Below, in pieces: positions 1,301 through 37,935 of a stretch of DNA of 44,733 nucleotides. Origin of the DNA: Candidatus Omnitrophota bacterium (GTDB lineage: Bacteria > Omnitrophota > Omnitrophia > Omnitrophales > Aquincolibacteriaceae); the NCBI GenBank assembly GCA_023247035.1, contig JAHFHG010000013.1:1-44733 (forward strand). The letters are read 5' to 3'. Every line of letters starts with the position of its first letter. Within the stretch, counting starts at the first letter, position 1. Made by a program: the position numbers and the translations under genes. Under the pieces are notes generated by a model. The model did no database searches. It had not been told where the DNA came from and saw only the letters and a list, made by a program, of their open reading frames with translations.

Positions 1301-2879
1301 ACCCCAGTCCCTTCAGATTTTTTTGGATTTCTCCTTCGAGCTCACGTGATTCCCTAAACTGTGCAGAAAGTTCCGAAGTCAATCGTTTCATTTTCTCTTC
1401 AAAGACTTCCGGATCTTCCTCCTGCGCTTCGGTGCCTACGTAGCGGCCTGGAGTAAGAATGTGTCCGTGTTTTTTGATTTCTTCCAGGGCGGCTGATTTG
1501 CAAAACCCGGCAATGTCTTTGTAGGCACCTGGATTCCCGCTTTCGCGGGAATGACGACCCTGTGGAGTTCCCCGCCAGGAATGATACGTCCCGGCAATCT
1601 TCGAAATTTCTTCATCGGTCAGCTCGCGATGGCGGCGGTCGATCATGGCCCCCATGTTGCGGGCATCGATAAAAAGGGTTTCACCGCGGCGATCTCGATG
1701 TTTGTGATTTTTCTTATCGCGTGCCACAAACCAAAGGCATACAGGAATCATCGTGTTGTAAAAAAGCTGAGACGGCAAAGCAATCATGCAATCCACAAGA
1801 TCCACCTCGACAATTTTCTTCCGGATCTCCCCTTCGCCGGATGTGTTGGAGGACATTGACCCGTTGGCCATTACAAAACCGGTCGTGCCGGTAGGCGAGA
1901 GATGGTAAATAAAATGCTGAATCCATGCAAAGTTGGCATTACCGACTGGAGGCGTGCCGTATTTCCAGCGGGGGTCTTCTCTTAACATCTCACCTTTCCA
2001 ATCGCTGTCATTGAAGGGCGGGTTAGCAATGACAAAATCCGCTTTCAAGTCTTTGTGAGCATCTTTTAAGAAACTGCCTTCGTTATTCCAGGCAATGTTG
2101 GCGTCAATGCCGCGGATCGCAAGATTCATTTTGCAAAGACGCCAGGTGGTTTGATTGGATTCCTGGCCATAAATTGAAATATCCCCGATCCGCCCGCCAT
2201 GCGCCTCGGCAAACTTTTCACTTTGTACGAACATTCCACCCGAACCGCAGCAGGGATCAAACACCCGGCCTTTGTAGGGCTCGAGCACTTCGACGAGAAG
2301 TTTTACGACACAACGTGCCGTATAAAACTGCCCGCCCTTTTTGCCTTCTGCATCTGCAAACTGACCAAGGAAATACTCGTAAACACGTCCCAAAATATCT
2401 TTGCTTCTGTTTTCTCTGTCACCGAGGCCGATCGTACCGATCAAATCAATCAACTCTCCCACCCGCTGTTTATCGAGAGCTGGGCGGGCATAATTTTTGG
2501 AGAGAACACCTTTGAGCGTCGCGTTATCTTTTTCAATTTCGTCCATGGCATCGTCAATGAGTTTGCCGATTGCAGGCTGCTTTGCATTTTTCTGCAAGTA
2601 ATCCCAGCGTGCTTTCTTGGGAACGTAGAAAATATTCTCGCCTCTGTATTCGTCTGGATCTTCAGCATCAGCGCCTTTGGTTTTGGAGAGCTTGTCATAA
2701 AGTTCCTTGAAAGCATCCGAAATGTACTTCAGAAAAATAAGGCCGAGCACAACGTGCTTATACTCAGCGGCGTCCATATTATTTCGAAGCTTATCCGCCA
2801 CCTTCCAAAGCTTTTCTTCAAAACCCAGGTTTGCACCGTTTAAGGCTTTTGATCTTCGTTCTTCTTTTGTTTTTGTCAT
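1290..2879 (-). CDS. hsdM: Type I restriction-modification N6-adenine methyltransferase HsdM
   Basis: A 529-residue protein, the usual HsdM length. The N-terminal HsdM bundle (about residues 20-160) is followed by the SAM-binding motif DPCCGSGG (208-215) and the catalytic NPPFN (286-290), so the enzyme looks active as an adenine methyltransferase. HsdM works with HsdS to protect host sites. Residues about 438-450 ([13 protein letters not shown]) are an in-frame insertion encoded by a REP-like palindrome, placed just before the conserved [13 protein letters not shown] block. No hsdR is visible; it may lie beyond the left edge. The gene follows the ImmA-like fragment by only a few bases, suggesting one transcript from the XRE promoter. 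Confidence 0.96.
1533..1552. repeat. REP-like palindrome inserted within the hsdM coding sequence
   Basis: A perfect 8-bp inverted repeat, ATTCCCGC and GCGGGAAT, separated by TTTC and flanked by GTCAT- and CCAGG-type ends. This is the widespread dispersed palindrome that is often mistranslated as a SFPRKRES or RHSRESGNP peptide. Here it lies inside a real gene and keeps the frame, adding about 13 residues to HsdM. Confidence 0.85.
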
Positions 2880-2884
2880 CGATT

Positions 2885-3070
2885 TTAATCCTCTAATTCC
2901 AATGCCTCTTGAAGCCCAGGCATAGGAATAATGTTGATTCCGAACTTGAACTCAAGAATTTCCTCGATGGGAATAGGAATCTCACGGGAAGGATAGTGTT
3001 GTTCAAGAAACTGTGCAGCAATTTCCCTTAGACGGTCATACGGCAGGTGAGGAACAGAAATCTCGCTCAA
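2885..3070 (-). CDS. ImmA/IrrE-type metallopeptidase N-terminal fragment
   Basis: Only 61 residues. The sequence ([37 protein letters not shown]) matches the N-terminal segment of ImmA/IrrE-family proteins, which normally continue to an HExxH zinc protease domain. Here a TAA stop follows [10 protein letters not shown], and hsdM begins 5 bases later, so the catalytic part is missing. The start codon overlaps the stop of the upstream XRE gene (ATGA), as in intact XRE-ImmA pairs. Either the protease was deleted when the hsd genes came to lie downstream, or the short form still serves as a partner of the regulator. Protease activity is excluded by length. Confidence 0.75.
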
Positions 3071-3435
3071 TCACTATGCCCTTTAATTTTGCGGACCAGT
3101 TTGTTTAATTTTTCATCCGAGACTTTTTTGCCCCGGAGAGTACGAAAAAGAATTGGCAGCTTTTCGACTACCCGTTCATCACTCAAAATATCCTGCGGGA
3201 TTTTTCCTGCTTCCGCGGCAGCAAGGTCAAAAAACTGGTACCAATCGTCTGTTCCCTCTTTCAGTCCCAAAAGCTTGGCATATTCCTCAAGCTTCTCGTG
3301 TTGAGGCGGTGGAAACAAGCCTCGTTCAAGTTTGCTGATATTCCCGGGATCCAGCTCATTATCCAGACAAAACTGCCGCAGGGTCTTTCCTAAGGCTATT
3401 CGCTTAGATTTAAAGAACCCACCGAATTGTCCCAT
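3067..3435 (-). CDS. XRE-family transcriptional regulator of the hsd operon
   Basis: A 122-residue protein starting at the ATG at 3435, chosen because a strong AGGGGG ribosome site lies 8 bases upstream; a longer frame would read through the promoter. Residues about 8-65 form a Cro/C1-type helix-turn-helix (RIALGKTLRQFCLDNELDPG, then NISKLERGLFPPP). The C-terminal part is helical and basic. It is the first gene of the run leading through the ImmA fragment to hsdM, rhuM-doc and hsdS. Inverted GTTGTAAT elements overlap its promoter, so it probably represses itself and sets timing of restriction-modification expression, as controller proteins do in other systems. The last inference is untested. 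Confidence 0.85.
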   Translation of the reverse strand: MGQFGGFFKSKRIALGKTLRQFCLDNELDPGNISKLERGLFPPPQHEKLEEYAKLLGLKEGTDDWYQFFDLAAAEAGKIPQDILSDERVVEKLPILFRTLRGKKVSDEKLNKLVRKIKGHSD

Positions 3436-3458
3436 GGTCGTATCCCCCTCTCTGTTCT

Positions 3459-3498
3459 GTTGTAATAAATATACCACATGTTGTAATCATATTACAAC
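3459..3498 (-). promoter_or_regulatory. Promoter with overlapping operator for the XRE-hsd operon
   Basis: On the minus strand a TTGTAA -35 (3492-3497) and a TATATT -10 (3468-3473) are 18 bases apart. The octamer GTTGTAAT occurs at 3480-3487 with its perfect inverse ATTACAAC at 3491-3498, and again as a direct copy at 3459-3466. The two direct copies start 21 bases apart, two helical turns. The palindrome covers the -35 region and the extra half-site covers the -10 region, the arrangement expected for an autoregulated XRE repressor. Confidence 0.7.
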
Positions 3499-3599
3499 CC
3501 CTATTTCCGACTTTTTTACAAGGGGGCCTTCAGTCTGAATTTTTCGGTTTCTTAACGGCGGTTTAACGGCATCCTGTCGGCAGTGCTTTTCGGGAAATC

Positions 3600-3638
3600 A
3601 AAAAAATGCCGCGGCTCAAGCTCTTGAGCTACGGCATT
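3600..3638 (-). terminator. Rho-independent terminator of the tmRNA gene
   Basis: Read on the minus strand, ATGCCG and GCTCAAG arms pair with CTTGAGC and CGGCAT around a 2-base loop and a small internal mismatch, and a run of seven T follows directly (3606-3600). It lies about 95 bases beyond the tmRNA 3' end. Confidence 0.8.
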
Positions 3639-3751
3639 GTATCATTTGGGCTTTTGACCCGGATTAGCTCACCTTCGACATAGAGATAACTCTCTACGTC
3701 ATAGTCATCATCCGGTTTGCCCCGAAAATGTGGAGGTGGGGGGAATTGCAC
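3629..3751 (-). other. Short open frame overlapping the tmRNA 3' end (40 codons)
   Basis: From a GTG at 3751 the frame encodes VQFPPPPHFR, then an acidic GKPDDDYDVESYLYVEGEL, and stops in the terminator hairpin. The first ten residues are simply the tmRNA acceptor and T-arm read as protein and are not evidence of a gene. The following 25 or so residues have strikingly protein-like composition for spacer DNA. They could be the tail of an older gene next to ssrA, a real microprotein, or chance. No ribosome site supports the GTG start. Confidence 0.25.
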
Positions 3752-4126
3752 CCCCGTCCAAGAGATCTACCTTAAAAGGATATCCATGCTCAGCCCGTGA
3801 TTTAATTTTATCCTTAAAACTCCCACGAGCGGGATTCCCAAGGACGAGCCCTCTAAAGTCTTAGTCTCCGGCCCGAAGGCTAACCGGAAACGCAGCCTGT
3901 TCATGTCGTCACAGGCGCCTAACAGGCGGTCAGCGCCGTGACGTCGCTGTCAATTAAGCAGCGATGGGAAGACCCGCAAAGCTGGGAACCGAAACCGGCC
4001 CCGCAGCTCTGTTGGTCCAGCTGAGTTTGTCAGCATTTGTGTTTTGCCAGGTGTTTTTAGAGGCCGCCTGACAACCTCTGCATGCTCCCTCTACGATAAA
4101 TTCCCATGTCGAAACTATTCACCCCC
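3731..4126 (-). ncRNA. ssrA: Transfer-messenger RNA (tmRNA)
   Basis: A one-piece tmRNA of about 396 bases. The 5' end GGGGGTGAATAGTTTCGAC is the conserved start, and its GGGGGTG pairs with CACCTCC at the 3' end before discriminator A (3731). The T-arm GGGGG-TGCAATT-CCCCC is present. CCA is not encoded (CAT follows), so it must be added. The tag frame appears to begin at GCT GAC AAA CTC and ends at GCT GCT TAA, giving about 26 residues that start ADKLSW and end GLPIAA. Most tags are 8-12 residues, so this one is long. The role is rescue of stalled ribosomes and tagging for proteolysis. Confidence 0.93.
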
Positions 4127-4176
4127 ATGCCAAAGATCGAAAATACGGCTCGCGGCAGCAGCCTCAAGCCGGACAA

Positions 4177-4206
4177 ATTATATCATCTCTTCCGGGGCGC
4201 CCTCAA
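4177..4206 (-). promoter_or_regulatory. Candidate promoter of the tmRNA gene
   Basis: On the minus strand TTGAGG (4201-4206) and TATAAT (4177-4182) are separated by 18 bases, and the -10 has an upstream TG (extended form). Transcription would start near 4170, leaving a 5' leader of about 45 bases to be trimmed by RNase P. A weaker second option, TTGAGG/TATTTT, lies at 4140-4167. Confidence 0.6.
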
Positions 4207-4624
4207 CTGCAGATTCTTGCCGCATTTTGAGACTTATTGGAAGGAAGAGAACGTGGCGTTTGAGGAAGTTGATTTGGCAAAATGACGCAAAAGTGTATCG
4301 GGAAAAGATATTGATCAATCATAAGTGTGATGACCCCGCCGTCGAAGAGCCAAGAGCACAACACGTTTTGCAGATTCGTCGATGTCGTAGAGAATGGCCG
4401 GTCGCCTTCACGGATGCGGAAGCGGGCGCATATCTTTACCAAATCGAAAATTTTCTTAACAATCGCCCCAGAAAATGCTTAAATGATCAAACGCCAAAAA
4501 AAGTCTGCCTCACCTTAAATAGATGCGCTTACTGGATAAGCATGAGAAAAACTTTAAGATGCCGTCTGTGGGAAAATAGCTGGAGGGCGATGATCGAGCA
4601 TGATAATTTAGAGAAAATAAGTTT
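4207..4624. other. Gene-poor scar between tmRNA promoter and membrane-protein gene
   Basis: About 420 bases without an intact gene. One frame stays open across it but shows protein similarity only in the IS30-like stretch at 4431-4505. I see no terminal inverted repeats or target duplication that would delimit an insertion sequence. Confidence 0.6.
4431..4505 (+). pseudogene. IS30-family transposase C-terminal remnant
   Basis: Twenty-five codons read YLYQIENFLNNRPRKCLN followed by DQTPKKV. This matches the very conserved end of the IS30 transposase catalytic domain, where an LNNRPRKCLxxxTPYEV-type sequence carries the last glutamate region. No DDE core is visible upstream and the frame degenerates on both sides, so this is a relic. 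It marks past insertion between ssrA and the following AT-rich gene. Confidence 0.75.
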
Positions 4625-6115
4625 ATGAATTCCAAACAGGAAGAATTTATTCTTGAAAATAGGGGGCGCTATTCCGCTTCTGAATTGGCGCAAAAGCTGA
4701 GTCTCAAGGAAAGAGAAATCAAACGATTTCTCAAAAGGCAACAAAAAATAAAGTCCGCTTCAGTCATTCCATTGCCTCCCCAGGTAAAACCTAAATTTCT
4801 TTTCTGGGTATTTCCGCTGCTTATCATTCTGGGCTTTCTGATTTATTCTAACACCTTTGATGCTGAATTTCATTATGACGATTTCCACAATATTGTTGAA
4901 AATTCCGCCGTTCATAATTTGTTGCGACCCGATCTTGTTTGGCAAAGCCACAAGGATCGATTTCTTACTTACCTTTCATTTGCCCTTAATTATCAATTCG
5001 GAAAAACTGAAGTTTGGGGTTACCATTTAATCAATATTCTCATTCACATTGCGGCAAGTTTAAGCGTTTATCTTTTTACAATATTGCTTTTTTGCACTCC
5101 CCGATTAGCCGTTCAATCCTTGCATTTGAATCCGAATAGAATTGCGCTGGCCGCCGCTCTTTTATTTTTGTGCCATCCTATTCAGATTCAAGCCGTTACC
5201 TATATTGTCCAGCGCGCCGCATCGTTAGCGACTTTTTTTTATCTTAGTGCTTGTATTTTGTACCTCTGGTCACGATTTAAGCCGGCCCCGAAACGATATT
5301 GGAGCGCAGTCGCTGTTACGGTCGCCGCAATGTTTGCGAAGCAAACCGCCTTTACTCTGCCTTTGGCACTTATTCTTCTTGAATATTTCTTCTTTCCTTG
5401 CAGTTATTATCCTTTAATGAAACGCTTACGATTTCTTTTTCCTTTCTTAGTGACAATGGCCATTCCTCTTGGGATACGCTCCTCCTGGGTCGCAGAGGCA
5501 GCGGCAAGAGGTGAAGTGGCACAACTTGCCGAAACTGATTTGATTACACCTTTTAATTATCTGACAACTCAATTTAGCGTCATTGTCACCTATCTTCGTC
5601 TTGTATTTTGGCCAACCGGCTTTTCGATTTATCACGCTTTTCCCCTATTGGGGTTCTGGAAACTTCGCACTATTTTATCTCTCGCACTTCTTTTATTGAT
5701 TGCCTTAACTGGATTCTTAATAAGAAAAAAACAGCCTTTGGTTGCGTTTGGCATCTCCTGGTTTTTCTTGACCTTAAGCGTCGAGTCCAGCTTCCTTCCA
5801 ATTCGCCACCTTATCTTTGAACATCGGATTTACCTGCCAATGGTAGGAGTTTGTTTGGTATTTGCGACCTTAGCGGTGCAAATTTTAAAGAATCAGAAAA
5901 TTTTTGCGGGTCTTTTTATGATACTCATTATTACTCTTTCGACTATGACTTACCGTAGAAATTTCGTTTGGAAGACGGACGCAAGCTTGTGGGAAGATGC
6001 CGCTTCGAAATACAGCACCTCTAATCGACGTCTATTTGTTGGGGAAGACGGACGGGGCGCTATGGAGCGAACGGAAGACAAACCCTTTGCTGAATGGGAG
6101 CACGACGCCCAATAA
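4625..6115 (+). CDS. Multi-pass membrane protein, TMTC/GT-C glycosyltransferase-like, probably truncated
   Basis: A 496-residue protein. Residues 1-45 look like a small helical DNA-binding-like segment (SASELAQKLSLKEREIKRFL). From about residue 55 it has around ten membrane helices with signatures of TMTC-like proteins: FHYDDFHNIVENSAV after the first helix, LTYLSFALNYQ and WGYHLINILIHI. Relatives with this N-terminus usually carry C-terminal TPR repeats after the last helix (SLWEDAASKYS). Here the sequence turns unrelated and acidic at about residue 460 and stops, so the TPR part seems lost. It is visibly richer in A+T than its neighbours and lies next to an IS30 relic, which suggests acquisition and later truncation. 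Sugar-transfer activity is a family inference only. Confidence 0.7.
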   Translation: MNSKQEEFILENRGRYSASELAQKLSLKEREIKRFLKRQQKIKSASVIPLPPQVKPKFLFWVFPLLIILGFLIYSNTFDAEFHYDDFHNIVENSAVHNLLRPDLVWQSHKDRFLTYLSFALNYQFGKTEVWGYHLINILIHIAASLSVYLFTILLFCTPRLAVQSLHLNPNRIALAAALLFLCHPIQIQAVTYIVQRAASLATFFYLSACILYLWSRFKPAPKRYWSAVAVTVAAMFAKQTAFTLPLALILLEYFFFPCSYYPLMKRLRFLFPFLVTMAIPLGIRSSWVAEAAARGEVAQLAETDLITPFNYLTTQFSVIVTYLRLVFWPTGFSIYHAFPLLGFWKLRTILSLALLLLIALTGFLIRKKQPLVAFGISWFFLTLSVESSFLPIRHLIFEHRIYLPMVGVCLVFATLAVQILKNQKIFAGLFMILIITLSTMTYRRNFVWKTDASLWEDAASKYSTSNRRLFVGEDGRGAMERTEDKPFAEWEHDAQ

Positions 6116-13196: not shown

Positions 13197-13272
13197 TGGT
13201 GGACCCGGCCGGGATCGAACCGGCGGCCTCCACAATGCGAATGTGGCGCTCTCCCAGCTGAGCTACGGGCCC
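13197..13272 (-). tRNA. tRNA-Ala (anticodon CGC)
   Basis: A 76-base cloverleaf. The acceptor arms are GGGCCCG and CGGGTCC, the D-arm is GCTCAGCTGGGAGAGC, and the anticodon stem CCACA/TGTGG holds the loop TTCGCAT with anticodon CGC. The T-arm is GCCGG-TTCGATC-CCGGC. Discriminator A and the CCA end are encoded (13200-13197). Confidence 0.97.
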
Positions 13273-13638: not shown

Positions 13639-13733
13639 CTGTGGCGGGGAGGCAAACCCGGGGGAACCCGGGGACGCAAAACTGACAGACCTCAAATCCG
13701 TAAAGGAAAAGGTGGCTGAGTTGCCGAAATCAG
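13639..13733 (+). ncRNA. GEMM-I (cyclic-di-GMP-I) riboswitch aptamer
   Basis: The core GGCAAACC (13651-13658) is followed by a CCCGGG stem closed by a GGAA tetraloop (GNRA type), then GGGACGCAAA (13671-13680). This is the conserved left half of the GEMM-I motif. The right half has TGGCTGAGTTGCCG (13713-13726) in place of the consensus TAGCCAGGTTACCG, a tetraloop-receptor arm. ACT after GCAAA pairs with AGT before TGCCG, replacing the usual GCC/GGT pairing, a compensatory change. An ACCT/AGGT stem lies inside that arm. CTG-GGC at the 5' end can pair with GCC-CAG at the 3' end as P1. By alignment the ligand-contacting G before GCAAACC is kept, favouring c-di-GMP over cGAMP. The call is by eye, without a covariance search. 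Confidence 0.8.
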
Positions 13734-13783: not shown

Positions 13784-13827
13784 AATACCCTGTCCCTTCA
13801 GTGGAAAGAGACGGGGTATTTTTTTTC
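13784..13827 (+). terminator. Rho-independent terminator of the riboswitch expression platform
   Basis: AATACCCTGTCCCTT pairs with AAAGAGACGGGGTATT (about 14 pairs with one mismatch and one G-T) and is followed by a run of T (13819-13826). It ends 75 bases before the start codon of the TPR gene and is not preceded by any gene on this strand. It is therefore most simply read as the switchable terminator of the c-di-GMP riboswitch. Confidence 0.85.
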
Positions 13828-16413: not shown

Positions 16414-16782
16414 ATGAAGGCTAAAACGGTCCAGCCCGGAACTCCGGAAAATTTGGAGACCGTGGTCGAGCGCTTTCAAAAACAGGACAGTGAAGTCGGC
16501 ATGGAGGACTTCAGGGATCTCGTCATTCGGATCCCCGGAAACATTACGGCCGAAGTCCCGGAGGATAAGAATGGTTTCCTTTTCGATACGAATACGGGGC
16601 GTGTTTACGCGCTCAACCGGACCGCCTCGTTCCTCTTCGGCAAGATCCGCCAGGAACTGTCCCTTTCGGAGATCCTCAAACAATTGACGCAGCGTTACGA
16701 CGTCAATGAGGCGATCGCGATATCCGATCTCCAGGATTTTCTTTATCAGCTCAAAGAATTAGGCGTAGGGTCGGAAGAATGA
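16414..16782 (+). CDS. PqqD-like protein (RiPP recognition element fold)
   Basis: A 122-residue protein. From about residue 45 it matches the PqqD family: EDKNGFLFDTNTGRVYALNRTASFLFGKI is the antiparallel sheet plus first helix, and LSLSEILKQLTQRYDV and DLQDFLYQLKELGV supply the remaining helices. PqqD-type domains (RREs) bind leader peptides of ribosomal peptide substrates and deliver them to modifying enzymes. The first 45 residues are an extra, polar N-terminal extension. It lies directly between the TPR gene and two ATP-grasp ligases, and its stop overlaps the first ligase start (ATGA). No radical-SAM partner, usual for PqqD, is nearby. Binding of a peptide is a family inference. Confidence 0.82.
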   Translation: MKAKTVQPGTPENLETVVERFQKQDSEVGMEDFRDLVIRIPGNITAEVPEDKNGFLFDTNTGRVYALNRTASFLFGKIRQELSLSEILKQLTQRYDVNEAIAISDLQDFLYQLKELGVGSEE

Positions 16783-17870
16783 TTCGCTGTAATGTGGCTT
16801 GCACAGGTTTGGATTCCGCGGAAAATCCCTATCCCGGGCTCAGTGTTTTGAAGAGCATTAAGGAGTCCGGAGAATTTGCGGGAAAAACAATCGTTCTGAC
16901 CTACGACGGCCTTTGCACGGGCCTGTACCAGCACGACCTCGTCGACGAGGTCTATTTGGTGCCCTACCCGTCGGAGCCCGAAGAATATTTGTTTACGCGA
17001 ATCGCAGAGATTCACCGGAAGGCCAAGATCGATGTCATTATCCCCTGCCTGGACTCTGAAATTGCAACGTACGCGCGCTTGAGTTCCCGGCTGCAAAGCC
17101 TCGGAATTCATGTCCTGGTCCCCCGGGAAAGCTCCGTCAAAGCCCGTTCCAAGATCTTTTTGCCGGAATTCTGCAAGGAAAATGAAATTGATTTTCCCAA
17201 AAGCTACCTGATTAACGATCCTAATGAAATCGAAAAGCACGCCGCCGAGCTGCATTATCCGTTACTGCTCAAGGGTTCGATCATCGATGCGGTCAAGGTC
17301 GAGAATCCCACGGAGGCGCATGTTTTCTTTCACCGCCTGGCCAATGAATGGGGATTGCCTTTAATTATTCAAGAACAGCTGGACGGCGAAGAATATGACG
17401 TGGCCGTGCTGGCCGACCGGAACAGTCAGGTTATCGCCCGAGTAGCGATGCGGAAGATGGGTTTGACGAAAGCGGGAAAAGCCTTAGCCGGCGTGACGGT
17501 CGACAGCAAAGAATTTGACGGCCTTGTTGAAAAGGTCGTGAAAGCGTTGAAGTGGCAAGGCCCGCTGGAACTGGAACTCATGAAAAATTCCGATTTGAAT
17601 AAGACCTATTTGATCGAGATCAACTCACGATTTCCTACTTGGGTGTCTGCGACCTTAGGCTGCAATTTGAATCTTCCCCTGCTGAATCTCAAACTCGCCT
17701 TGGGCGAAACCCTGACGCCCCAGCTTGCTTACAAAAAAGGCGTCATGTTTATCCGCGTGATTGGAGATACCTATTGCAATTTCAGTTACTTGGCTCAGCT
17801 CAACCTCAAAGGGGAAATCGATTGGGCTCAAGCCAAAAGCAAAAATAAAAACCTGATGGAGGCTGCATGA
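16779..17870 (+). CDS. ATP-grasp ligase 1 of the operon
   Basis: A 363-residue ATP-grasp enzyme in the carbamoyl-phosphate-synthase/PylC-like branch. The N-terminal Rossmann-like domain (NVACTGLDSAENPYPGLSVL) is followed by the ATP-grasp fold with Lys165 in YPLLLKGS, IIQEQLDGEEYDVAVLAD near 196-213, and the metal-binding E280-I-N282-S-R284. All key residues are present, so the enzyme should activate a carboxylate as an acyl phosphate and join it to an amine or thiol. Its start overlaps the PqqD-like gene and its end overlaps ligase 2. The two ligases share the GPLExExxKxSD and TGLxxxENPxPG segments and look like a tandem duplication. The substrate is unknown. Confidence 0.85.
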   Translation: MIRCNVACTGLDSAENPYPGLSVLKSIKESGEFAGKTIVLTYDGLCTGLYQHDLVDEVYLVPYPSEPEEYLFTRIAEIHRKAKIDVIIPCLDSEIATYARLSSRLQSLGIHVLVPRESSVKARSKIFLPEFCKENEIDFPKSYLINDPNEIEKHAAELHYPLLLKGSIIDAVKVENPTEAHVFFHRLANEWGLPLIIQEQLDGEEYDVAVLADRNSQVIARVAMRKMGLTKAGKALAGVTVDSKEFDGLVEKVVKALKWQGPLELELMKNSDLNKTYLIEINSRFPTWVSATLGCNLNLPLLNLKLALGETLTPQLAYKKGVMFIRVIGDTYCNFSYLAQLNLKGEIDWAQAKSKNKNLMEAA

Positions 17871-18946
17871 GCCGGATGAAATTCAATGTCGCCGTCACCG
17901 GATTAAGCGCGGGCGAAAATCCCTGTCCGGGAATCGGAGTGATCCGAAGCTTGAAACAGGAAGCGGGTGAGAACATCCGGATTATCGGTTTAACTTACGG
18001 GCTTCTAAACGGAGGGGTCTACCTGGATCAACTGGTGGACGAGGTCTATTCGGTTCCGTTTCCTCAGGACGACGAGGAAAAATATTTGTCGCGGATACGC
18101 GAGATTGTAAAAAAGACAAAGATTCATGCCTTCCTCCCTAATTTGGATTTTGAGATTCCTGTCCTATCGGGCTTAGAAGCCGATTTAAAGGATTTGGGAA
18201 TCCACCTCCTCCTTCCCTCAGAGACTACGCTGGAGCTGTGCAAAAAAGAGAAACTTCCGCGATTAGGCGAACTTGCGGGAATTAATGTCCCCTTTACCGT
18301 CGTCTTATGGGATCGAAGAGAGATCGTCAGCAGCGCCTCCTATTTCACTTATCCGTTCCTTTTGAAAGCCGCGACCGGGGATGGAGCCTTCGTCTATTCT
18401 TTGGAGGAAGCCATCGTCTTCGCCAATCGCCTGTCAGCCAATTGGGGATGGCCTTTGATCATGCAGCAATATATCAAGGGCGACGAATTTTCCGTGGCCG
18501 CCCTTGCGGACCGCCGGCATGAAGTAGTCGGGGGCGTCTGCATGAAAAAAATTCTCAAATCGAAAAATGGAAATACCTGGATCGGAAGCACCATAAAAGA
18601 TGACAATTTGATTAAACTCGTCCGGAAAATTATCAAAAAGACGAAATGGGAAGGCCCTCTCGAAATGGAATTCATCAAAGATTCCGATACCCGAGGCTAT
18701 TTTCTGATCGAAATCAATCCGCGCTTCCCGAGCTGGATTGAACTGGTCTCCAAGGCCGAATGCAATCTTCCTATGGCCGCGGTCAAGATCGCGCTCTCCC
18801 AAACGGTGAAACCTTTTTTAAGCTATCGGACGGGCATCTTATTCGCCCGAAGCGGAATGTACACAACCTGTGATGTAACCCGCTTAGGCCAACTCGCAAC
18901 AAAGGAGGAACTTATTTACCATGGCAACAACCATCAAAAAAACTGA
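17867..18946 (+). CDS. ATP-grasp ligase 2 of the operon (paralogue of ligase 1)
   Basis: A 359-residue ATP-grasp enzyme. The N-terminus NVAVTGLSAGENPCPGIGVI mirrors ligase 1. ATP contacts are Lys167 in YPFLLKAAT, a glycine loop ATGDGAF absent from ligase 1, IMQQYIKGDEFSVAALAD near 198-215 and the metal site E282-I-N284-P-R286. Active residues are intact. Divergence from ligase 1 around the loop suggests a second, different condensation rather than redundancy. Its ATG overlaps the ligase 1 stop, and its 3' end overlaps the decarboxylase gene by 26 bases, including that gene's ribosome site (AGGAGG at 18903). Function is limited to carboxylate-amine/thiol ligation by family. Confidence 0.85.
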   Translation: MSRMKFNVAVTGLSAGENPCPGIGVIRSLKQEAGENIRIIGLTYGLLNGGVYLDQLVDEVYSVPFPQDDEEKYLSRIREIVKKTKIHAFLPNLDFEIPVLSGLEADLKDLGIHLLLPSETTLELCKKEKLPRLGELAGINVPFTVVLWDRREIVSSASYFTYPFLLKAATGDGAFVYSLEEAIVFANRLSANWGWPLIMQQYIKGDEFSVAALADRRHEVVGGVCMKKILKSKNGNTWIGSTIKDDNLIKLVRKIIKKTKWEGPLEMEFIKDSDTRGYFLIEINPRFPSWIELVSKAECNLPMAAVKIALSQTVKPFLSYRTGILFARSGMYTTCDVTRLGQLATKEELIYHGNNHQKN

Positions 18947-20408
18947 GATTCAGGATCCGCTTTCTTTAGAAGCGAACTCTAAAGAAGCGAACTCTAAAAA
19001 AAGACGAAACGGCAAGGTTCCGGTTCAGGGGCAGGAGGAACGAAAAAAAACGGTCAATCACCGCCTGACCTATGAAAAGCCCCTCATCACGATGCACTCC
19101 CTGGGGGCAACGAACAAGTATACGGGACGGGCCCTCAGTTCGATTACCTGCCCGGAGATTGACGGTGTCAATGTCGCCCGGCTGGTAAGCAAATTCGGCT
19201 CGCCTTTGTACGTGGTCTCGGAGGAAAATCTACGGAGCAAATACAAGGAATTCATTCAAGCCCTCCGCTCCTTATATCCCGAGTCTTATATCGCCTATTC
19301 CTATAAGACCAATTATCTGTCCGGGATTTGCAGCATTCTTCATCAAGAGGGAGCTTGGGCGGAAGTCGTTTCCGGCCTGGAATACGAAATGGCGCTGGAG
19401 ATGGGAATTGATCCTGCGAAAATCGTCTTCAACGGGACGCATAAGACATCGGATGATTTGATCCGGGCGATTAAGGGAAACTCGATGCTCCATATCGATT
19501 CCTTTAATGAAATTTACCAGCTTGAAAGCCTGGCGATCTCCAAAGGCAGGCCCGCAAATGTCGCCATAAGAGTCAATATGAATGTGGGTTATCCTCCCTG
19601 GAATAAATTCGGCTTCAACCTGGAATCCGGGCAAGCCTTTGAGGCCTGCCGGCGGATTGTTTCGTCGGGCTCCTTAAGACTCAACGGCCTGCATTGCCAC
19701 GTGGGAACTTATATCGCCGATAGCGGCCTTTACCACCAGGCGATCACGAAGCTGATTGATTTTGCTCTGAAACTCGAGAAGGATTTGAATATCCAAATTG
19801 AGTATCTCGATTTAGGCGGAGGGTATGCTTCCGCAAATACCCTGCATTCCCAATTCTTGAGCGGGGCCGCCATCATCCCGACCTTGGAGCAATATGCCAA
19901 CGCCCTCTGCCAGCCCCTTCGCAAAAGGGCGGGTGAATTCAAACGAAAGCCGAGGCTCATCTTGGAACCGGGCCGCGCGCTCGTCGACGAGGCCGTTTCC
20001 CTGGTCACGACCGTGGTAGCGACCAAACGTTTTGCGGATGGAAGGAAAGCGATCATCATCGACGCCGGGGTCAACATTCTCCCGACGGCCTACTGGTTCA
20101 AGCATGAGATTGCCTCAACGCAGGATATCGGCTCCCCGTTAGAGACGGTCAATGTCTATGGCCCCTTGTGTATGCAGATCGATGTGATCCGGACCGAGGT
20201 CAGGCTCCCGCCTTTTCAAAAAGGGCACGTCCTCGTCATCAAAAATGTGGGGGCCTACAACATCACCCAATCGATGCAGTTTATTTATGCCCGGCCTGCT
20301 GTGGTATTGATTCATAACGGAAAGGCCGATTATCTGAGGCTGCCGGAGAGCGCAAAAGATTTTCGCCATCTGGAGGTTATTCCCGACCATCTGCAAGTTA
20401 AGAAATAA
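18921..20408 (+). CDS. Fold-III PLP-dependent decarboxylase, LysA-like, with N-terminal extension
   Basis: A 495-residue protein, longer than typical diaminopimelate decarboxylase (about 420). The first 75 or so residues are a lysine-rich extension containing a doubled EANSK unit. The barrel follows: PLP Lys129 in AYSYKTNY, HCHVGT at 258-263, the LGGGY phosphate site at 298-302 and EPGR at 349-352. The C-terminal domain gives Cys417 in GPLCMQIDV and Tyr446 in GAYNITQ. In diaminopimelate decarboxylase the Cys is followed by Glu (CES); here it is CMQ, hinting at a different substrate. Related BtrK decarboxylates an amino acid tethered to a carrier after ATP-grasp loading, a possible precedent. 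The ribosome site is 12 bases from the ATG. Confidence 0.88.
   Translation: MATTIKKTEIQDPLSLEANSKEANSKKRRNGKVPVQGQEERKKTVNHRLTYEKPLITMHSLGATNKYTGRALSSITCPEIDGVNVARLVSKFGSPLYVVSEENLRSKYKEFIQALRSLYPESYIAYSYKTNYLSGICSILHQEGAWAEVVSGLEYEMALEMGIDPAKIVFNGTHKTSDDLIRAIKGNSMLHIDSFNEIYQLESLAISKGRPANVAIRVNMNVGYPPWNKFGFNLESGQAFEACRRIVSSGSLRLNGLHCHVGTYIADSGLYHQAITKLIDFALKLEKDLNIQIEYLDLGGGYASANTLHSQFLSGAAIIPTLEQYANALCQPLRKRAGEFKRKPRLILEPGRALVDEAVSLVTTVVATKRFADGRKAIIIDAGVNILPTAYWFKHEIASTQDIGSPLETVNVYGPLCMQIDVIRTEVRLPPFQKGHVLVIKNVGAYNITQSMQFIYARPAVVLIHNGKADYLRLPESAKDFRHLEVIPDHLQVKK
18969..18998 (+). repeat. Tandem 15-bp duplication in the decarboxylase extension
   Basis: GAAGCGAACTCTAAA occurs twice head to tail, encoding a repeated EANSK. 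The perfect identity implies a recent event in a segment that tolerates length change. Confidence 0.9.
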
Positions 20409-20413: not shown

Positions 20414-21505
20414 ATGGACCCTTGGGCTGGCTGGAATGACCTGGCGCGTAAGAAACCGTTTTTCCGTTTTGCCGATACCCTTGCCAAAGGATACGCCCAA
20501 GTCCTCTTCTGTCTCCATCCCGGCACGGGTCTTTTTCTTGCCGGAGCCATTTTTTACATTTCACCCGCCATCGGATCGCTCACCCTGTTGGGAGTTGTCT
20601 ATTCCACACTGACTGCCTTTCTCGTTCGCGCCAGGGCTCTGCATATTGATTCAGGCGTCTACGGCTTCAATGGCGTGGTCTTAGGAGTGGCCTGGGGATG
20701 GTTTTTTAAATTGAAACCAGCTTCCGTGGTGTTGCTCATTCTGGCCGCGATTCTTTCCTCCCTCTTGATGAAATTTTTAAGCGGCCTGAGCGCGCGAACG
20801 AGAACCAACGTTCCCGTTTTCAGCCTTCCTTCTCTTTTATTGATCTGGAGCCTCCTCCTGGGGCTTCATACATTCTTTCCCCGCACGGACCTCCTCGGCC
20901 CTGATCAACGGATGGAAGAATACTTTCAGGATTTCCAAAATCATTTCCTGGCCCTGAGGAATTATTTCACCGGGTGGATGTTTTTCTCAACCTTTCAACG
21001 GCACCTCGTGGCAATAGCCCTTATCCTCTTCGGGGTCTATCTTCACTCGTGGATTTCGGCCGGCGCTGCCGGAATTTCTTTTCTGCTCACCCTCGCGATG
21101 ATCTTAGGATTGGGCGGGATCGGCGAGATTGTGAACATAGAATTCTACCTCTACAACACAATCCCCTGCGCCATTGCTTTGGGCGGTATCTTTCTGGTGC
21201 TAAACCGCAGGGCCGTCGCTTTGACCGTACTCGGGGTCGTCCTCGTCGGCCTTCTGACATTTGCCGGAATCAAGTATTTCCCCTTCCCCGCTTTTGTCGC
21301 GCCCTTTAATTTTATCACGATCCTCTTGATCGCAGGGGTGAAGGCAGGGACTTTCGCTAGAAAATATGGCCTTCATGCCGTTCCCATGGAACTGATTTCC
21401 ACTCCCCAAATGGGAATTCAATGGTACCAGGGAGAGCGTTACGCCGTCCGTTTTTGGCAGGAAATCAGCAATCCTTCGGCGAAAATTATAGGGAGGAAAG
21501 GTTGA
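20414..21505 (+). CDS. Urea-transporter-family membrane protein
   Basis: A 363-residue integral membrane protein with about ten helices. It shows the two-fold UT architecture: HPGTGLFLAGAIFYISP and SGVYGFNGVVLGVAWG in the first half, and IEFYLYNTIPCAIALGG and VAPFNFITILLI in the second. The LP-box-like SLPSLLLIW is also present. UT proteins are channels for urea or similar amides. No urease or urea-generating enzyme is seen in the window, so the role may be to move a small amide made by the operon. It starts 5 bases after the decarboxylase stop, with a weak ribosome site, and its TGA overlaps the TTG start of the sirtuin gene. Confidence 0.85.
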   Translation: MDPWAGWNDLARKKPFFRFADTLAKGYAQVLFCLHPGTGLFLAGAIFYISPAIGSLTLLGVVYSTLTAFLVRARALHIDSGVYGFNGVVLGVAWGWFFKLKPASVVLLILAAILSSLLMKFLSGLSARTRTNVPVFSLPSLLLIWSLLLGLHTFFPRTDLLGPDQRMEEYFQDFQNHFLALRNYFTGWMFFSTFQRHLVAIALILFGVYLHSWISAGAAGISFLLTLAMILGLGGIGEIVNIEFYLYNTIPCAIALGGIFLVLNRRAVALTVLGVVLVGLLTFAGIKYFPFPAFVAPFNFITILLIAGVKAGTFARKYGLHAVPMELISTPQMGIQWYQGERYAVRFWQEISNPSAKIIGRKG

Positions 21506-22305
21506 AAAAGGAAAAGGTTTCGGGAAAAAATAAGTTTGAGCAAGCCGGGCGGATGATCTTGTCTGCGGAGAAGATCGTCGCTTTTACGGGGGCCGGAACT
21601 TCCACCGACTCGGGGATTCCCGATTATCGCGGAATCGGCCGGGATTATTGGACAAAGTATGATCTGAAAGATTTTACTTTTCACCAGTTTCTGGCCAGCG
21701 AGGCGGCAAGAAAAGAGTGCTGGCGGATGGAGCAAGAATTCTACGAACTGGTCCTCAGATCGGAGCCCAACGATATCCATTACGCCTTGGCGGAACTCGA
21801 GCGCGCGGGAAAGCTCCTGTCCATTATCACCCAGAACGTTGACGGCCTGCATCAGAAATCGGGCAATTCGCCGGAAAAGGTCATCGAAATCCACGGGAGT
21901 ATTTTTACGGTCAGCTGTTTGCAATGCTTTAAGAAATACTCGCGCGAAGAAATCTACCAAAGGATCAAAAGCGGAATCGATGTCCCGTATTGCGCCTTTT
22001 GCTACGGAATTTTGAAATCCGACACGATTTCCTTCAGCCAGCCGCTCCTGCCGGAGATTTGCGCGAGGTCGCTCGGAACGACCCTGCAAAGCGATTTATT
22101 TATCGTCATCGGCTCCTCACTTCTGGTTCAGCCCGCAGCCTATCTGGTGACGAAGGCAAAGGAGGCCGGAGCGAAAGTGATCATCCTCAATTTCAGCCCG
22201 ACTCCTTATGACTTTTGCGCCGATCTGGTGATCTATGAAAACGCGTGCCGTGCAATGGTTGAGATCATGAAGGATCTCCATACGCGAAGCGGGTCAAGCC
22301 GATGA
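21502..22305 (+). CDS. Sir2-family NAD-dependent deacylase
   Basis: A 267-residue sirtuin if started at the TTG at 21502, which overlaps the transporter stop and has GGGAGG five bases upstream. Motifs are complete: GAGTS at 30-34, GIPDYRG, TQNVDGLH at 110-117, catalytic His131 in IHGS, zinc cysteines at 139, 142, 164 and 167, and GSSLLVQPA. It removes acyl groups from lysine using NAD. In this operon it could reverse or regulate a lysine-linked modification, or tune an acyl-CoA-dependent enzyme. That link is inferred only from co-transcription. Its stop overlaps the reductase start (ATGA). Confidence 0.93.
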   Translation: MKKEKVSGKNKFEQAGRMILSAEKIVAFTGAGTSTDSGIPDYRGIGRDYWTKYDLKDFTFHQFLASEAARKECWRMEQEFYELVLRSEPNDIHYALAELERAGKLLSIITQNVDGLHQKSGNSPEKVIEIHGSIFTVSCLQCFKKYSREEIYQRIKSGIDVPYCAFCYGILKSDTISFSQPLLPEICARSLGTTLQSDLFIVIGSSLLVQPAAYLVTKAKEAGAKVIILNFSPTPYDFCADLVIYENACRAMVEIMKDLHTRSGSSR

Positions 22306-23264
22306 AATACGGCCGGATCCCACGCACCGATTTAGAGGTCTCCTGCCTGGGTTTGGGAACCTGGGTCTTCGGCGGCGACGTTTGGGGCGGGGCGGAGGAA
22401 AAGGAATCTCTGAACGCCATTCAGACCGCGCTGGATCAGGGTATAAACTTTATCGATACGGCTCCGATTTACGGCGACGGCCTGGCCGAGAGTATCGTCG
22501 GCAAGGCCATCAAGGCAAAGCCCGGCAAAGTGATTCTCGCAACGAAATGCGGTTTAAGGCGCCGCGGTAACGGAACGATCAAACTCGACCTCTCTCCTGT
22601 CGCCATTCGCGGTGAAATTGACGAGTCCCTCAGACGGCTTGGGGTTGAGCAGATTGATTTATACCAATGCCACTGGCCCGATCCCAACACTCCGATTGAA
22701 ATGACCTTAGAAGCATTGCTGCAAATCCAGGCGGAAGGAAAAATCCGGCATATCGGCGTTTCCAATTTCGATCGCGGACTTCTTGAAAAGGCTTCCGCTT
22801 CTGCGAAGATCGTCACGCTCCAGCGGCATTATTCGCTCCTCGAACGAACTGTCGAAGCTGAGGTTCTAACGTATTGCCGGCAGAATGCGGTCGGTTTTCT
22901 GGCTTATGGATCGCTGGGGGGCGGGATTCTTTCGGGGAAATACCGTTCGCCGAAGCGATTCAACCCGGAAGACGCGAGAAACTTTTTCTATAAATTTTAT
23001 GAGGGCGAGGGCTTTAAACGAACCCAAAAATTAATCCAACGGCTCGGCGCGTTCGGACATCCCATCCATGAAGCCGCCCTGAATTGGGTCCGGCAGCAAC
23101 CGGGAGTGACAAGCGTCCTTGTGGGGTGCCGGAATTCAGAACAAGTGAAAGCAAATCTCCTCGCTCTGGACTGGGATTTATCGGCTCAGGAGTTGGATCG
23201 AATATCCTCCAGGGAGAAGGAAAAAAAACTAAGCGGCGTCGAGCTTGGCAAGCCCCGCCAATGA
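22302..23264 (+). CDS. Aldo/keto reductase
   Basis: A 320-residue NADP-dependent oxidoreductase. The catalytic tetrad is visible: Asp in FIDTAPIYGDG with the following Tyr, Lys in ILATKCG, and His in YQCHWPD. The C-terminal GVTSVLVGCRNSEQVKANL is the usual cofactor-binding end, and the length fits the family. It closes the plus-strand operon. The substrate is not predictable; an aldehyde formed after decarboxylation or deamination is one option. Its last 36 bases overlap the 3' end of the TPR lipoprotein gene on the other strand. Confidence 0.92.
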   Translation: MKYGRIPRTDLEVSCLGLGTWVFGGDVWGGAEEKESLNAIQTALDQGINFIDTAPIYGDGLAESIVGKAIKAKPGKVILATKCGLRRRGNGTIKLDLSPVAIRGEIDESLRRLGVEQIDLYQCHWPDPNTPIEMTLEALLQIQAEGKIRHIGVSNFDRGLLEKASASAKIVTLQRHYSLLERTVEAEVLTYCRQNAVGFLAYGSLGGGILSGKYRSPKRFNPEDARNFFYKFYEGEGFKRTQKLIQRLGAFGHPIHEAALNWVRQQPGVTSVLVGCRNSEQVKANLLALDWDLSAQELDRISSREKEKKLSGVELGKPRQ

Positions 23265-24140
23265 GTTTGCAAAATTCGGGTCAAGGGCGATGGCCTTGTT
23301 GAACATTTTGCGGGCTTTTGAGAACTTCTTATTATTTTTAACGCTCCCCTTTTTCACTTCGCCGACCGAGTAAAAATAACTCCAGCCGATCTTATCGTAA
23401 ACCTCAGGAGTCGCAGCGTAATGGAGCGCCCTTTTGTAAACAGGAATGGCCTTGTCATATTTCTTGAGAGCAAAGAGGCTGTCTCCCAGCTTCATACGCG
23501 CGTCGTTCCAATCAGGGTGAAAAAGAACCGCGGTCTTAAAATGACGGATCGCTTTGGGGTAATCTTCCCGGGCGAAGTTCAGATAACCCAGCCCGCGGTG
23601 CGCCTCAGGCTCGGTTTTGACGCCCCCCGCAGATTGATACCCCATTCCCTTTCTTAATGAATTCTCAAAATAGCGCTCCGCCTTCGTGACATCATTTTTG
23701 CGGAAACTGGCCCACCCAAGCCCCGCGTAGGCGTCCGCGGAATGGCGGTTCACTTTGAGGGCTTTTTGAAAAAAAGAAATCGCCGTGTCGTAATTGAGTT
23801 TCTTAAAATTGCCCCACCCCTGCCCGGTATAGGCTTCCACGGCCTTGGGATGCTCGGCGGCGAGCTTCTCAAATGTTGCCAGCGCCTTGTCGTACTGATC
23901 CAGTTTGAAATAGGTCCACCCGGCCATCGTTAGAGATGCCTCATTGTCCGGATCTTTCTGAAGCGCCTTTTCGAGATATTCGGCCGCTTTTTTGAAGTCA
24001 TTCTTCCCAAAATAATAGCTGGCAAGCGAGGAATAATTTTTCCCGATTAAACTTGCGCAGCCGGGGAGAATCCCCAGCGTCAATAGGATAAAAAGACAAG
24101 ATCTAAAAAATCGCCGGCCGCCCATTGCTGTGTCGTTCAT
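23229..24140 (-). CDS. TPR-repeat lipoprotein
   Basis: A 303-residue protein starting at the ATG at 24140 with GAGGA upstream; a longer frame would enter the porin gene. Residues about 10-28 form a signal peptide with lipobox LPGC, so it should be acylated and likely sits in the outer membrane facing the periplasm. About seven TPR units follow, rich in GW pairs (GWTYFKLDQYDKA, GWGNFKKLNYDTA, GLGWASFRKNDVTKA). They resemble the repeats of the 835-residue TPR protein, and both proteins end in a similar SLAGLAKLDAA / ALNGLAEVDRIG segment. It is co-directional with and 16 bases after the porin gene. AlgK is a TPR lipoprotein partnering a porin in alginate export, a structural precedent only. Confidence 0.88.
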   Translation of the reverse strand: MNDTAMGGRRFFRSCLFILLTLGILPGCASLIGKNYSSLASYYFGKNDFKKAAEYLEKALQKDPDNEASLTMAGWTYFKLDQYDKALATFEKLAAEHPKAVEAYTGQGWGNFKKLNYDTAISFFQKALKVNRHSADAYAGLGWASFRKNDVTKAERYFENSLRKGMGYQSAGGVKTEPEAHRGLGYLNFAREDYPKAIRHFKTAVLFHPDWNDARMKLGDSLFALKKYDKAIPVYKRALHYAATPEVYDKIGWSYFYSVGEVKKGSVKNNKKFSKARKMFNKAIALDPNFANSLAGLAKLDAA

Positions 24141-24156
24141 GGTCAGATCCTCATCT

Positions 24157-25716
24157 TCAGAAGCTGATGTCCAAGCCCGCTTCGAGCTGATAGGCCACGT
24201 CGGCCTTTCCATCCCTGCGCGGGGTCGGAGCAAAAATATTTGTGGAAGAATTGTCTCCTCGGCGCTGCTTGTAGTAACGCCCAGGAATAAAGTAGCCGCT
24301 CAAAACACTCAATTTGATATGCTTTGTCAATTCGTAACTAATGAAAAAATCAATCTCATTGCCCAGATCCTTGGGAAATTTTGAAATCTGCCCAAGGTCG
24401 TTGCGTCCAAATCCCGCCTCTTTGGAACGCAGGTACCAATAATCGATGCCGACATAAATTTTATCATAAGGGGTAAAATCAAAACCCGTCGTATAGGCGT
24501 AGAGATTCTCAAAAAGAAAAGGATCGCCGAAAGTGCCCGGCCTTTGAACGCCGAAATTGGCCGCGTACCCTCCCGCCATCGCAACGAAGGGGCCGAATTG
24601 CTTCGGGTAGTGGCTGTCCGTAAGATTTTTATTGTTCGGCGAGAAAACACTAAATGCGCGATTCTTCTTTCCGGGGAGAGTCGGCGAAGCAAAGTTAGTC
24701 TCATCCAGGCGGTTGCCTGAGGTCACAAGCCATTTGAACTTGGGTTTAAAACTGCCTAGGTTCACGCTAACATCGGAAATGTAAAGATAGCCCTCGTGTT
24801 TGACGTCGCCGGTGCTTGAAAAACCCGCCCCAAAATTCCGCGCCGCTTCAAAGCCAAAACTGAATCTGCCGAAATTGAGATTAAGATAAAGCCCCGGGGT
24901 GATCAAGGCTTCACTATCGACTACTTTAGTGAAGGCATTCGCCCTATTCGGCGTTGATGTCCAATCCGCAAGCCAGCCGATGTAAGGCTGGAACCGATGT
25001 TCGAGATTTTTGCCGAATTTCAAATTCAGATCGGCGGCCTGAAAGAAAGCATCGGTGTCGTTGTACCGGTTCACTTTGTCAAAGTCGATGACTTTCCCCA
25101 GATGGATCCGGTTATTGATATCTTCAGCCTCCCAATGAAGGTTCCAATCGACGCGCTCACCTTTACGAGCAAGTGTAAAACCGTAGTTTTCGTACTTTCC
25201 GCCCATCACCATCCGATTGCCGATTTCTCTGCCGTAAGGGAACAGCCCCACTTTCAAAGTGTAGCTGCGGGTTCGATTCAAAGGAATTTCCGCCCACAAT
25301 TCCCTGACGCGCGGAAACATATCGGTGTAGCGATAATAATGGTACTGTCCAAAAATTGTTTCAATCGAACGGCTCCCCCACAAAGGCGAGTCATAATCCG
25401 CGCGGCCTCTTCTTTCGATAAAGCCATAAACCTCGACGCCGGAGATATGCCGTATGTCGATCGTAAAGTCGTAGACATAACCCAAGTATTGAACCTCGTC
25501 CGCGCCCTTATTACGATCCAGGTCGACTGTGTTTCCAAGGAGGTTATAGGAAGTGCGGAGGTGAGTGCCGAAGTGAAAGGCCCAGTCGTGTAATTTTTTG
25601 GTATAGTCGTCGGCGGCGCTGGGAGAAATATCCTTCAGATACGCTTCCGCAAAGGACGGGGCCGGAAATAGGATAACGCTAAGGAGAAACAGGACTGCCG
25701 GGAAGGTGGCTCTCAT
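24157..25716 (-). CDS. Outer-membrane beta-barrel protein (alginate-export-like porin)
   Basis: A 519-residue protein starting at the ATG at 25716 (GAGG 8 bases upstream). Residues 1-24 are a signal peptide (ATFPAVLFLLSVILFPAPSFA). The rest alternates polar and hydrophobic residues with many aromatic girdle positions (YHYYRYTDMFPRVRELWAEI, GLYLNLNFGRFSFGFEAAR) and ends LEAGLDISF with terminal Phe, as expected for a BAM-assembled barrel. The RELWAEIPL and KVGLFPYGREIG segments resemble the alginate-export/porin superfamily. Transport substrate is unknown. It has its own promoter and is followed by the TPR lipoprotein, convergent to the ATP-grasp operon. Confidence 0.8.
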   Translation of the reverse strand: MRATFPAVLFLLSVILFPAPSFAEAYLKDISPSAADDYTKKLHDWAFHFGTHLRTSYNLLGNTVDLDRNKGADEVQYLGYVYDFTIDIRHISGVEVYGFIERRGRADYDSPLWGSRSIETIFGQYHYYRYTDMFPRVRELWAEIPLNRTRSYTLKVGLFPYGREIGNRMVMGGKYENYGFTLARKGERVDWNLHWEAEDINNRIHLGKVIDFDKVNRYNDTDAFFQAADLNLKFGKNLEHRFQPYIGWLADWTSTPNRANAFTKVVDSEALITPGLYLNLNFGRFSFGFEAARNFGAGFSSTGDVKHEGYLYISDVSVNLGSFKPKFKWLVTSGNRLDETNFASPTLPGKKNRAFSVFSPNNKNLTDSHYPKQFGPFVAMAGGYAANFGVQRPGTFGDPFLFENLYAYTTGFDFTPYDKIYVGIDYWYLRSKEAGFGRNDLGQISKFPKDLGNEIDFFISYELTKHIKLSVLSGYFIPGRYYKQRRGDNSSTNIFAPTPRRDGKADVAYQLEAGLDISF

Positions 25717-25866: not shown

Positions 25867-25896
25867 ATGATATAAAAAATTTTCTATCGCTGTCAA
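25867..25896 (-). promoter_or_regulatory. Promoter of the porin-lipoprotein pair
   Basis: On the minus strand a perfect TTGACA (25891-25896) is followed after 18 bases by TATCAT (25867-25872); TATATC gives a 16-base alternative. The spacer and surroundings are strongly AT-rich. The leader to the porin ATG is about 145 bases. Confidence 0.7.
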
Positions 25897-36477: not shown

Positions 36478-36870
36478 CTAACTTACTTCAGAGATTTCTT
36501 CGGGATCGCTGTAATCATTGATCTTTGTTTCCAGCCAATGATTATAAGCGTAGTCCAAAACTCGAAACTTGTCGACCGGATCCATCATCAGGAACCGGAC
36601 TCCGTGATCAAATCCCTGGTTTTCTCCCTCGGAAGCGTGAGACCACATGATTTTAGCGGCCGTGTGCACCGGCTTGGCGTCATCGGGGATGTTAATCTCC
36701 AAATCGAGCACGGTTCCTTCTTTTAACTCCAAATTGGAGTTCATCTTAAGACCTTCGCGCGATAAATCTTTGCTCAGGCTGACACCTTTAACTTCCAGCT
36801 CTCCGGGAGACTGATACTTAATAGTCATATACGCATCAAAACGTTTAAATTTTCTTTTTTCTTTTTCCAT
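36478..36870 (-). CDS. PilZ-domain protein 1
   Basis: A 130-residue single-domain PilZ protein. The N-terminal KEKRKFKRFDAYMTIKYQ holds the Arg/Lys c-di-GMP motif in weakened form, and SLSKDLSREGLKMNSN matches the D/NxSxxG motif. TVLDLEINIPDDAKPVHTAAKIMW is the PilZ barrel. PilZ proteins bind c-di-GMP, but the missing canonical RxxxR makes binding here uncertain. It has a strong AAGGAGG ribosome site and its own promoter at 36981-37009. Confidence 0.82.
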   Translation of the reverse strand: MEKEKRKFKRFDAYMTIKYQSPGELEVKGVSLSKDLSREGLKMNSNLELKEGTVLDLEINIPDDAKPVHTAAKIMWSHASEGENQGFDHGVRFLMMDPVDKFRVLDYAYNHWLETKINDYSDPEEISEVS

Positions 36871-37548: not shown

Positions 37549-37935
37549 TTAGCCCTGTGCTTTCAAATCAGCGTGCTCTTGAATAAGCCGGCGAAGGGCC
37601 CCATCGGCTTCTTCGCTAAGGTTGACAAACTCAATTCCAATGTCATAAGACGGCTTTGTCTCTTTGGCATCCTTCTTTGTAGGAATAATCCAGACCACTT
37701 TTCCTGTGCAGTCAATAGGGGGAAGCGGGTCATTCAACTGCAAGCGCAAACGGCAGGTTGAAAAACGCTCTAGCGGTTTAGGAAGCAGGATACAAACTCC
37801 GCCCGTCCCGAGATTTTCTGTCACAGCGGAAATAGGATTTCCTCTTTCCGGATGGACGACAATCTCACAACGGACGCTCATCCGGGGAAATTTTCTTTTA
37901 TTAAAGCCATCCCACATTTCTACGACCCACGTCAA
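37549..37935 (-). CDS. PilZ-domain protein 2
   Basis: A 128-residue PilZ protein if started at TTG 37935, or 122 residues from the ATG at 37917; neither has a clear ribosome site. FNKRKFPRMSVRCEIVVHP has a plausible RxxxR (RMSVR), and TENLGTGGVCILLP stands in for D/NxSxxG. The barrel continues with CRLRLQLNDPLPPIDCTGKVVW. It probably binds c-di-GMP better than PilZ protein 1, judging by the Arg spacing. It is 24 bases upstream of yajQ on the same strand. Confidence 0.82.
   Translation of the reverse strand: MTWVVEMWDGFNKRKFPRMSVRCEIVVHPERGNPISAVTENLGTGGVCILLPKPLERFSTCRLRLQLNDPLPPIDCTGKVVWIIPTKKDAKETKPSYDIGIEFVNLSEEADGALRRLIQEHADLKAQG

Follow-up and report, generated by a model that had tools for sequence, protein, structure and literature searches.

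What is a lipidated TPR protein doing beside a probable outer-membrane barrel, tail-to-tail with an operon of eight genes? This arrangement occurs in a MAG of Candidatus Omnitrophota, a phylum without cultured members that 'has not been isolated' (PMC10066038). The TPR-plus-barrel export systems in PMC9734138 are all for polysaccharides and under c-di-GMP control, and the original prediction for this locus was of an AlgK/AlgE-like pair that exports the product of the convergent operon. Here we analyse the window, that is the whole stretch of 44,733 nucleotides of contig JAHFHG010000013.1, which comes from an assembly of 1.85 Mb in 64 contigs. The lipoprotein gene, the barrel gene and the operon are referred to below as the cassette.

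Layout of the cassette

The features of the cassette are given in Table 1. Both ORFs of the pair are intact on the minus strand, each with an ATG start, and they probably form a bicistron. The LPGC lipobox and the barrel with C-terminal Phe 16 bases upstream of the lipoprotein, both named in the original prediction, are present as described. The lipoprotein gene and the convergent aldo/keto-reductase gene share 36 bp at their 3' ends.

Table 1. Features of the cassette, with coordinates in the window
Feature	Position	Strand	Remarks
c-di-GMP-I riboswitch aptamer	13641..13728	+	RF01051, 60.6 bits against gathering 35; 64.6 bits in second genome
Intrinsic-terminator hairpin 3' of aptamer	13786..13826	+	sequence and pairing conserved in second genome
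Large periplasmic GW-TPR protein, 835 aa	13903..16410	+	N-terminal signal sequence
PqqD-family protein	16414..16782	+	PF05402, 49 bits
ATP-grasp ligase 1	16779..17870	+	ATPgrasp_Ter; PylC-like N-terminal domain, below cut-off
ATP-grasp ligase 2	17867..18946	+	40% identical to ATP-grasp ligase 1
LysA-fold PLP decarboxylase	18921..20408	+	nearest solved relative N-citrylornithine decarboxylase
Decarboxylase residues 48-71, RLTYEKPLITMHSLGATNKYTGRA	19062..19133	+	24/24 identical in second genome; YxxPxI motif
Urea-transporter family channel	20414..21505	+	PF03253, E 9e-40
SIR2-family NAD-dependent deacylase	21511..22305	+	start chosen from second genome's length
Aldo/keto reductase	22302..23264	+	3' end overlaps lipoprotein 3' end
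TPR lipoprotein, 303 aa	23229..24140	-	lipobox LPGC at residues 25-28, seven TPRs, GW-rich
Gap, barrel stop to lipoprotein start, 16 bp	24141..24156	-	51 bp in second genome
Probable outer-membrane beta-barrel, 519 aa	24157..25716	-	signal peptide, C-terminal Phe; divergent Alginate_exp (PF13372) relative
Sigma-70-like promoter of pair, TTGACA-18-TATCAT	25867..25896	-	11/12 match

A tRNA-integrated island was considered and rejected: the tRNA-Ala(CGC) gene at 13197-13272 has its 3' end pointing away from the cassette, and the repeats show no flanking pair. Elsewhere in the window (3728-4126 and 311-4628), a tmRNA gene adjoins a transposase-like fragment, an HsdM-like methylase gene and a RhuM-like gene, which are possibly an element integrated at the tmRNA.

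The lipoprotein and the barrel

The seven repeats of the lipoprotein match PF07719 (E 5e-38) and are canonical TPRs, with no match to Sel1 repeats (PF08238) at E <= 0.006. It contains four GW dipeptides where its composition predicts 0.4, and the large TPR protein of the operon contains 12 where 1.9 would be expected, whereas the other TPR proteins of the genome that were compared have 0-1. The GW-rich likeness of the two proteins, which had been predicted, is thereby borne out, and the large TPR protein is also the best match of the lipoprotein among the compared TPR proteins of the genome. AlphaFold2 models the lipoprotein as a confident TPR superhelix (pLDDT 86.8), for which the best 50 Foldseek matches include consensus TPR proteins, OGT and APC/C subunits; AlgK is not among these 50. 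Against named TPR families, the lipoprotein scores far below the cut-offs.

The 519-aa protein is probably an outer-membrane barrel, to judge from its signal peptide (MRATFPAVLFLLSVILFPAPSFA), its C-terminal Phe (...GLDISF), its nine strong alternating hydrophobic stretches (3.1 +/- 1.7 in shuffles) and its similarity to PF13372. Matches to this Pfam family were obtained in 14/15 members of the barrel family at E <= 0.1, the best at 9e-9. Comparison by hhalign of the barrel family with clear Omnitrophota PF13372 proteins gave 94% probability and an E-value of 1e-7, aligned over 166 columns only, which places the window barrel in the same superfamily as the Omnitrophota Alginate_exp barrels; unlike them, it belongs to a separate subfamily and scores 18.5 bits, below the gathering cut-off of 25.2. 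The barrel-family profile found no match in the PDB, and the AlphaFold2 model built from a two-sequence alignment has a pLDDT of 26.6.

PF13372 proteins occur in 27/58 related genomes. One such barrel, in another Omnitrophota genome, adjoins a multihaem c-type cytochrome gene, which suggests that the family is used for other things than alginate export; because of this neighbour, the name Alginate_exp says little about alginate. Relatives of the window barrel itself, with 33-40% identity, are found in 13 more genomes, and none of them adjoins the lipoprotein or the operon. In one taxonomic family they adjoin V-ATPase genes, a gene whose product has a tRNA-binding domain, and further housekeeping genes; in another, they adjoin genes for an OmpA-like lipoprotein and for a membrane protein that has TPRs at its C-terminus. 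On its own, the barrel family is older and more widespread than the linkage of lipoprotein and operon. Since these relatives stand without lipoprotein or operon, the barrel is a recruit from a family of outer-membrane proteins in Omnitrophota.

Co-occurrence and age of the cassette

The closest relative lies on contig JACQQR010000035.1, also from a Candidatus Omnitrophota MAG, where the barrel is 64-65% identical. The two cassette-bearing genomes belong to one order and to different families. All ten genes have identical order and orientation in both. A search of 145 related genomes found the lipoprotein (E <= 1e-15) and, at high score, ATP-grasp ligase 1 in these same two only; the decarboxylase was likewise confined to them among 384 genomes searched. 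Co-occurrence with the ATP-grasp operon, which the original prediction had named as its check, is thus what we observe: the pair is present only with the operon, in 2/2 genomes, and in none of the other ~143. Under random membership this coincidence would have a chance of ~1 in 10,000, a figure that is indicative only, the genomes being related and the genes adjacent.

Where residues are conserved, identity between the two copies at four-fold synonymous sites is 18-48% in each gene, the pair included, whereas at second codon positions it is 74-91%, again with the pair included. Four-fold sites so near saturation, together with second positions so well kept, point to purifying selection on all ten genes over a long time. 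Of the window genes beyond the cassette, those tested have no match on the second contig; there the cassette is flanked by genes for an ABC-2 transporter and an OGFr protein at one end, and by radical-SAM, methyltransferase and FAD-oxidase genes at the other end. Recent transfer as the cause of the synteny is ruled out by the saturated synonymous sites. Because synonymous divergence is near saturation and the flanks differ, the linkage of pair and operon is old and probably functional; as the cassette is present in two genomes only, this conserved linkage amounts to one comparison.

These results bear on the view that the pair is merely a neighbour of the operon, an outer-membrane porin and a TPR assembly helper that came to lie beside it by chance. 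Such a view accords with the separate promoter-like site of the pair, with the 13 genomes in which the barrel family occurs without the operon, and with the two genomes from which the cassette is known. However, the linkage has outlasted synonymous saturation and the change of all flanks, the lipoprotein is found nowhere else in 145 genomes, and an unusual GW-TPR type is common to the lipoprotein and the first gene of the operon. We regard adjacency by chance as unlikely.

Comparison with known export systems

Synthase-dependent exopolysaccharide secretion was judged by the five features given in PMC9734138. The outer-membrane-linked TPR protein is present (lipobox and seven TPRs, with localisation predicted), the barrel is likely, and the remaining three are absent from the cassette. 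No membrane-embedded glycosyltransferase is encoded among the cassette genes. The genome has GT2 matches outside the cassette; a single such locus was read, and it has no export partners. No PilZ or other c-di-GMP-binding synthase regulator was found in the cassette, which has a predicted riboswitch upstream of the operon instead, and no polymer-modifying enzyme (SGNH, epimerase, lyase or polysaccharide deacetylase) was found there by Pfam. Two short TIGR02266-like (PilZ-type) proteins, below the cut-off, are encoded in the window at 36478-36870 and 37549-37935, 11-12 kb from the pair.

The pair resembles AlgK/AlgE (PMC9734138) in that a lipidated outer-membrane TPR protein is encoded beside a separate barrel of ~500 aa, and in that the window barrel is distantly related to PF13372. 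It differs in its canonical GW-TPRs without the Sel1-type repeats that we took as the AlgK marker (PMC4594306), in a barrel below the Pfam cut-off whose relatives lie beside V-ATPase and housekeeping genes, and in a cassette that has no synthase, modifying enzyme or PilZ partner and whose convergent operon seems geared to the chemistry of small molecules or peptides. BcsC, PgaA and PelB also combine a TPR part with an outer-membrane barrel, but there TPR and porin are fused, whereas here they are two proteins, and the lipoprotein scores far below the family cut-offs (29 of 858 bits for BcsC, 25.5 of 366.65 for PgaA). The best NCBIfam match of the lipoprotein is the PEP-CTERM/XrtA TPR lipoprotein PrsT (TIGR02917), likewise a lipidated TPR protein, yet the score is 83.7 bits against a cut-off of 312.2, and the cassette has no exosortase-type locus.

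It could still be that the lipoprotein is an AlgK and the barrel an AlgE of a true exopolysaccharide system with its synthase encoded elsewhere. One bicistron for a lipidated TPR protein and a barrel, the distant PF13372 relationship, the c-di-GMP link of the operon and the GT2 proteins of the genome would all fit. We judge this improbable, given the missing glycosyltransferase, PilZ regulator, and SGNH or epimerase gene of the cassette, the search results for Sel1 repeats and AlgK, the barrel profile without PDB match, and the GT2 locus without such partners. Architecturally, the pair may function in the manner of AlgK/AlgE, and on present analysis we do not assign it as a member. What had been predicted stands in one part: co-occurrence, saturated synonymous divergence and differing flanks argue that the pair belongs with the operon, but not that it performs polysaccharide export of the AlgK/AlgE type.

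The convergent operon and its decarboxylase

The PqqD-like protein, two ATP-grasps, LysA-fold decarboxylase and urea-channel protein of the operon suggest a small amide or peptide-like product. The nearest NCBIfam entry to the PqqD-family protein is a lasso PqqD chaperone, below the cut-off. Plasmid relatives of the ATP-grasp have 25-27% identity only, with none covering most of the query beyond 80%, and no phage families were found. Our literature search found no paper on PqqD, ATP-grasp and decarboxylase clusters, and none on a c-di-GMP riboswitch with TPR and ATP-grasp genes. On another contig of the same genome (2-2916, at the contig end), genes for a TPR protein, a PqqD-family protein and radical SAM proteins lie side by side; a TPR gene adjoining a PqqD gene may be a recurring theme.

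BtrK, a relative of the decarboxylase, acts on a carrier-bound amino acid that is loaded by an ATP-grasp enzyme. The operon decarboxylase was rejected as the housekeeping DAP decarboxylase lysA, scoring 257 bits, below the cut-off of 297.9; the true lysA is elsewhere in the genome (495 bits). Its best solved relative, N-citrylornithine decarboxylase (7e-62), represents a class acting on conjugated substrates (PMC7857480), and its further relatives MccE and BtrK act on other modified substrates (PMC8503589). Between the two genomes, the decarboxylase has diverged over most of its N-terminal extension, but not at residues 48-71, which contain YEKPLI. This fits the motif [Y/W]xxPx[L/V/I/F/A] recognised by lasso-type RREs (PMC13381572). 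The motif alone appears in 2% of shuffles of the stretch, and the 24-residue identity is the stronger point. From its sequence, the invariant YxxP block looks like a recognition tag for the operon's PqqD-like protein.

Control of transcription

A link to c-di-GMP had been anticipated, and the operon is indeed preceded in both genomes by a predicted c-di-GMP-I riboswitch, a match above gathering with the conserved aptamer fold. What c-di-GMP would regulate is the operon's transcription rather than a synthase. We also considered shared control of pair and operon and rejected it: their upstream regions have no noteworthy motif in common, and there is no riboswitch close to the barrel gene. The pair lies outside the control of the riboswitch and behind a separate promoter-like site; sigma-70-like sites in the region are no more numerous than in shuffles. 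A weaker match to the c-di-GMP-I riboswitch (46.9 bits) lies on another contig of the same genome (942-1080), immediately 5' of the gene (1087-1713) for a transglutaminase-like protease; this gene is convergent with surface-polysaccharide genes.

Discussion

We propose, with a probability of about 0.5, that the pair serves a ten-gene cassette as its outer-membrane station, the lipoprotein docking on the barrel so as to direct the operon's compound through it. A small amide or peptide-like compound would be made by the cytoplasmic enzymes of the operon. Two GW-TPR proteins, the large one in the periplasm and the lipidated one beneath the outer membrane, would form a scaffold, and the lipoprotein, docked on the barrel, would pass the compound through, more likely outward as export than inward as uptake. 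This reading is drawn from the occurrence of pair and operon in the same genomes, the kept gene order, the differing flanks and the purifying selection, and from the GW-TPR type common to the lipoprotein and the large TPR protein. The aptamer and terminator present in both genomes and a decarboxylase distinct from lysA speak for it as well. Counting against a station are the barrel relatives without lipoprotein and the riboswitch that does not control the pair.

The direction of transport is where a serious rival enters. The barrel might let in a small amide, either a urea-like one or a fragment of a peptide, which the urea channel would take inward for the operon enzymes, the TPR lipoprotein anchoring or assembling the barrel. 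The sole inner-membrane transporter of the cassette is the urea-channel family protein, of a passive channel type, no export pump is encoded there, and the barrel relatives stand alone like ordinary porins, all of which would suit uptake. Most operon enzymes, however, look biosynthetic (ligases) and not catabolic, no result here points to a substrate, and to our knowledge general porins usually need no dedicated TPR lipoprotein. Uptake is accordingly a possibility that we rate well below an outer-membrane station. Whichever the direction, what the pair carries across the outer membrane is probably a small product of the operon or else its substrate, and this cargo is probably not a polysaccharide.

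A fuller picture, which we offer tentatively, is of a self-contained Omnitrophota surface system switched by c-di-GMP, with the PqqD-like protein recruiting the YxxP-tagged decarboxylase and the two ATP-grasps, a new amide- or peptide-like product, and a GW-TPR scaffold that hands it over to the lipoprotein-barrel pair. The cassette is compact enough for testing in a laboratory host. If the pair serves the PqqD/ATP-grasp/decarboxylase pathway, the same outer-membrane architecture that is used for polysaccharides would handle another class of product too.
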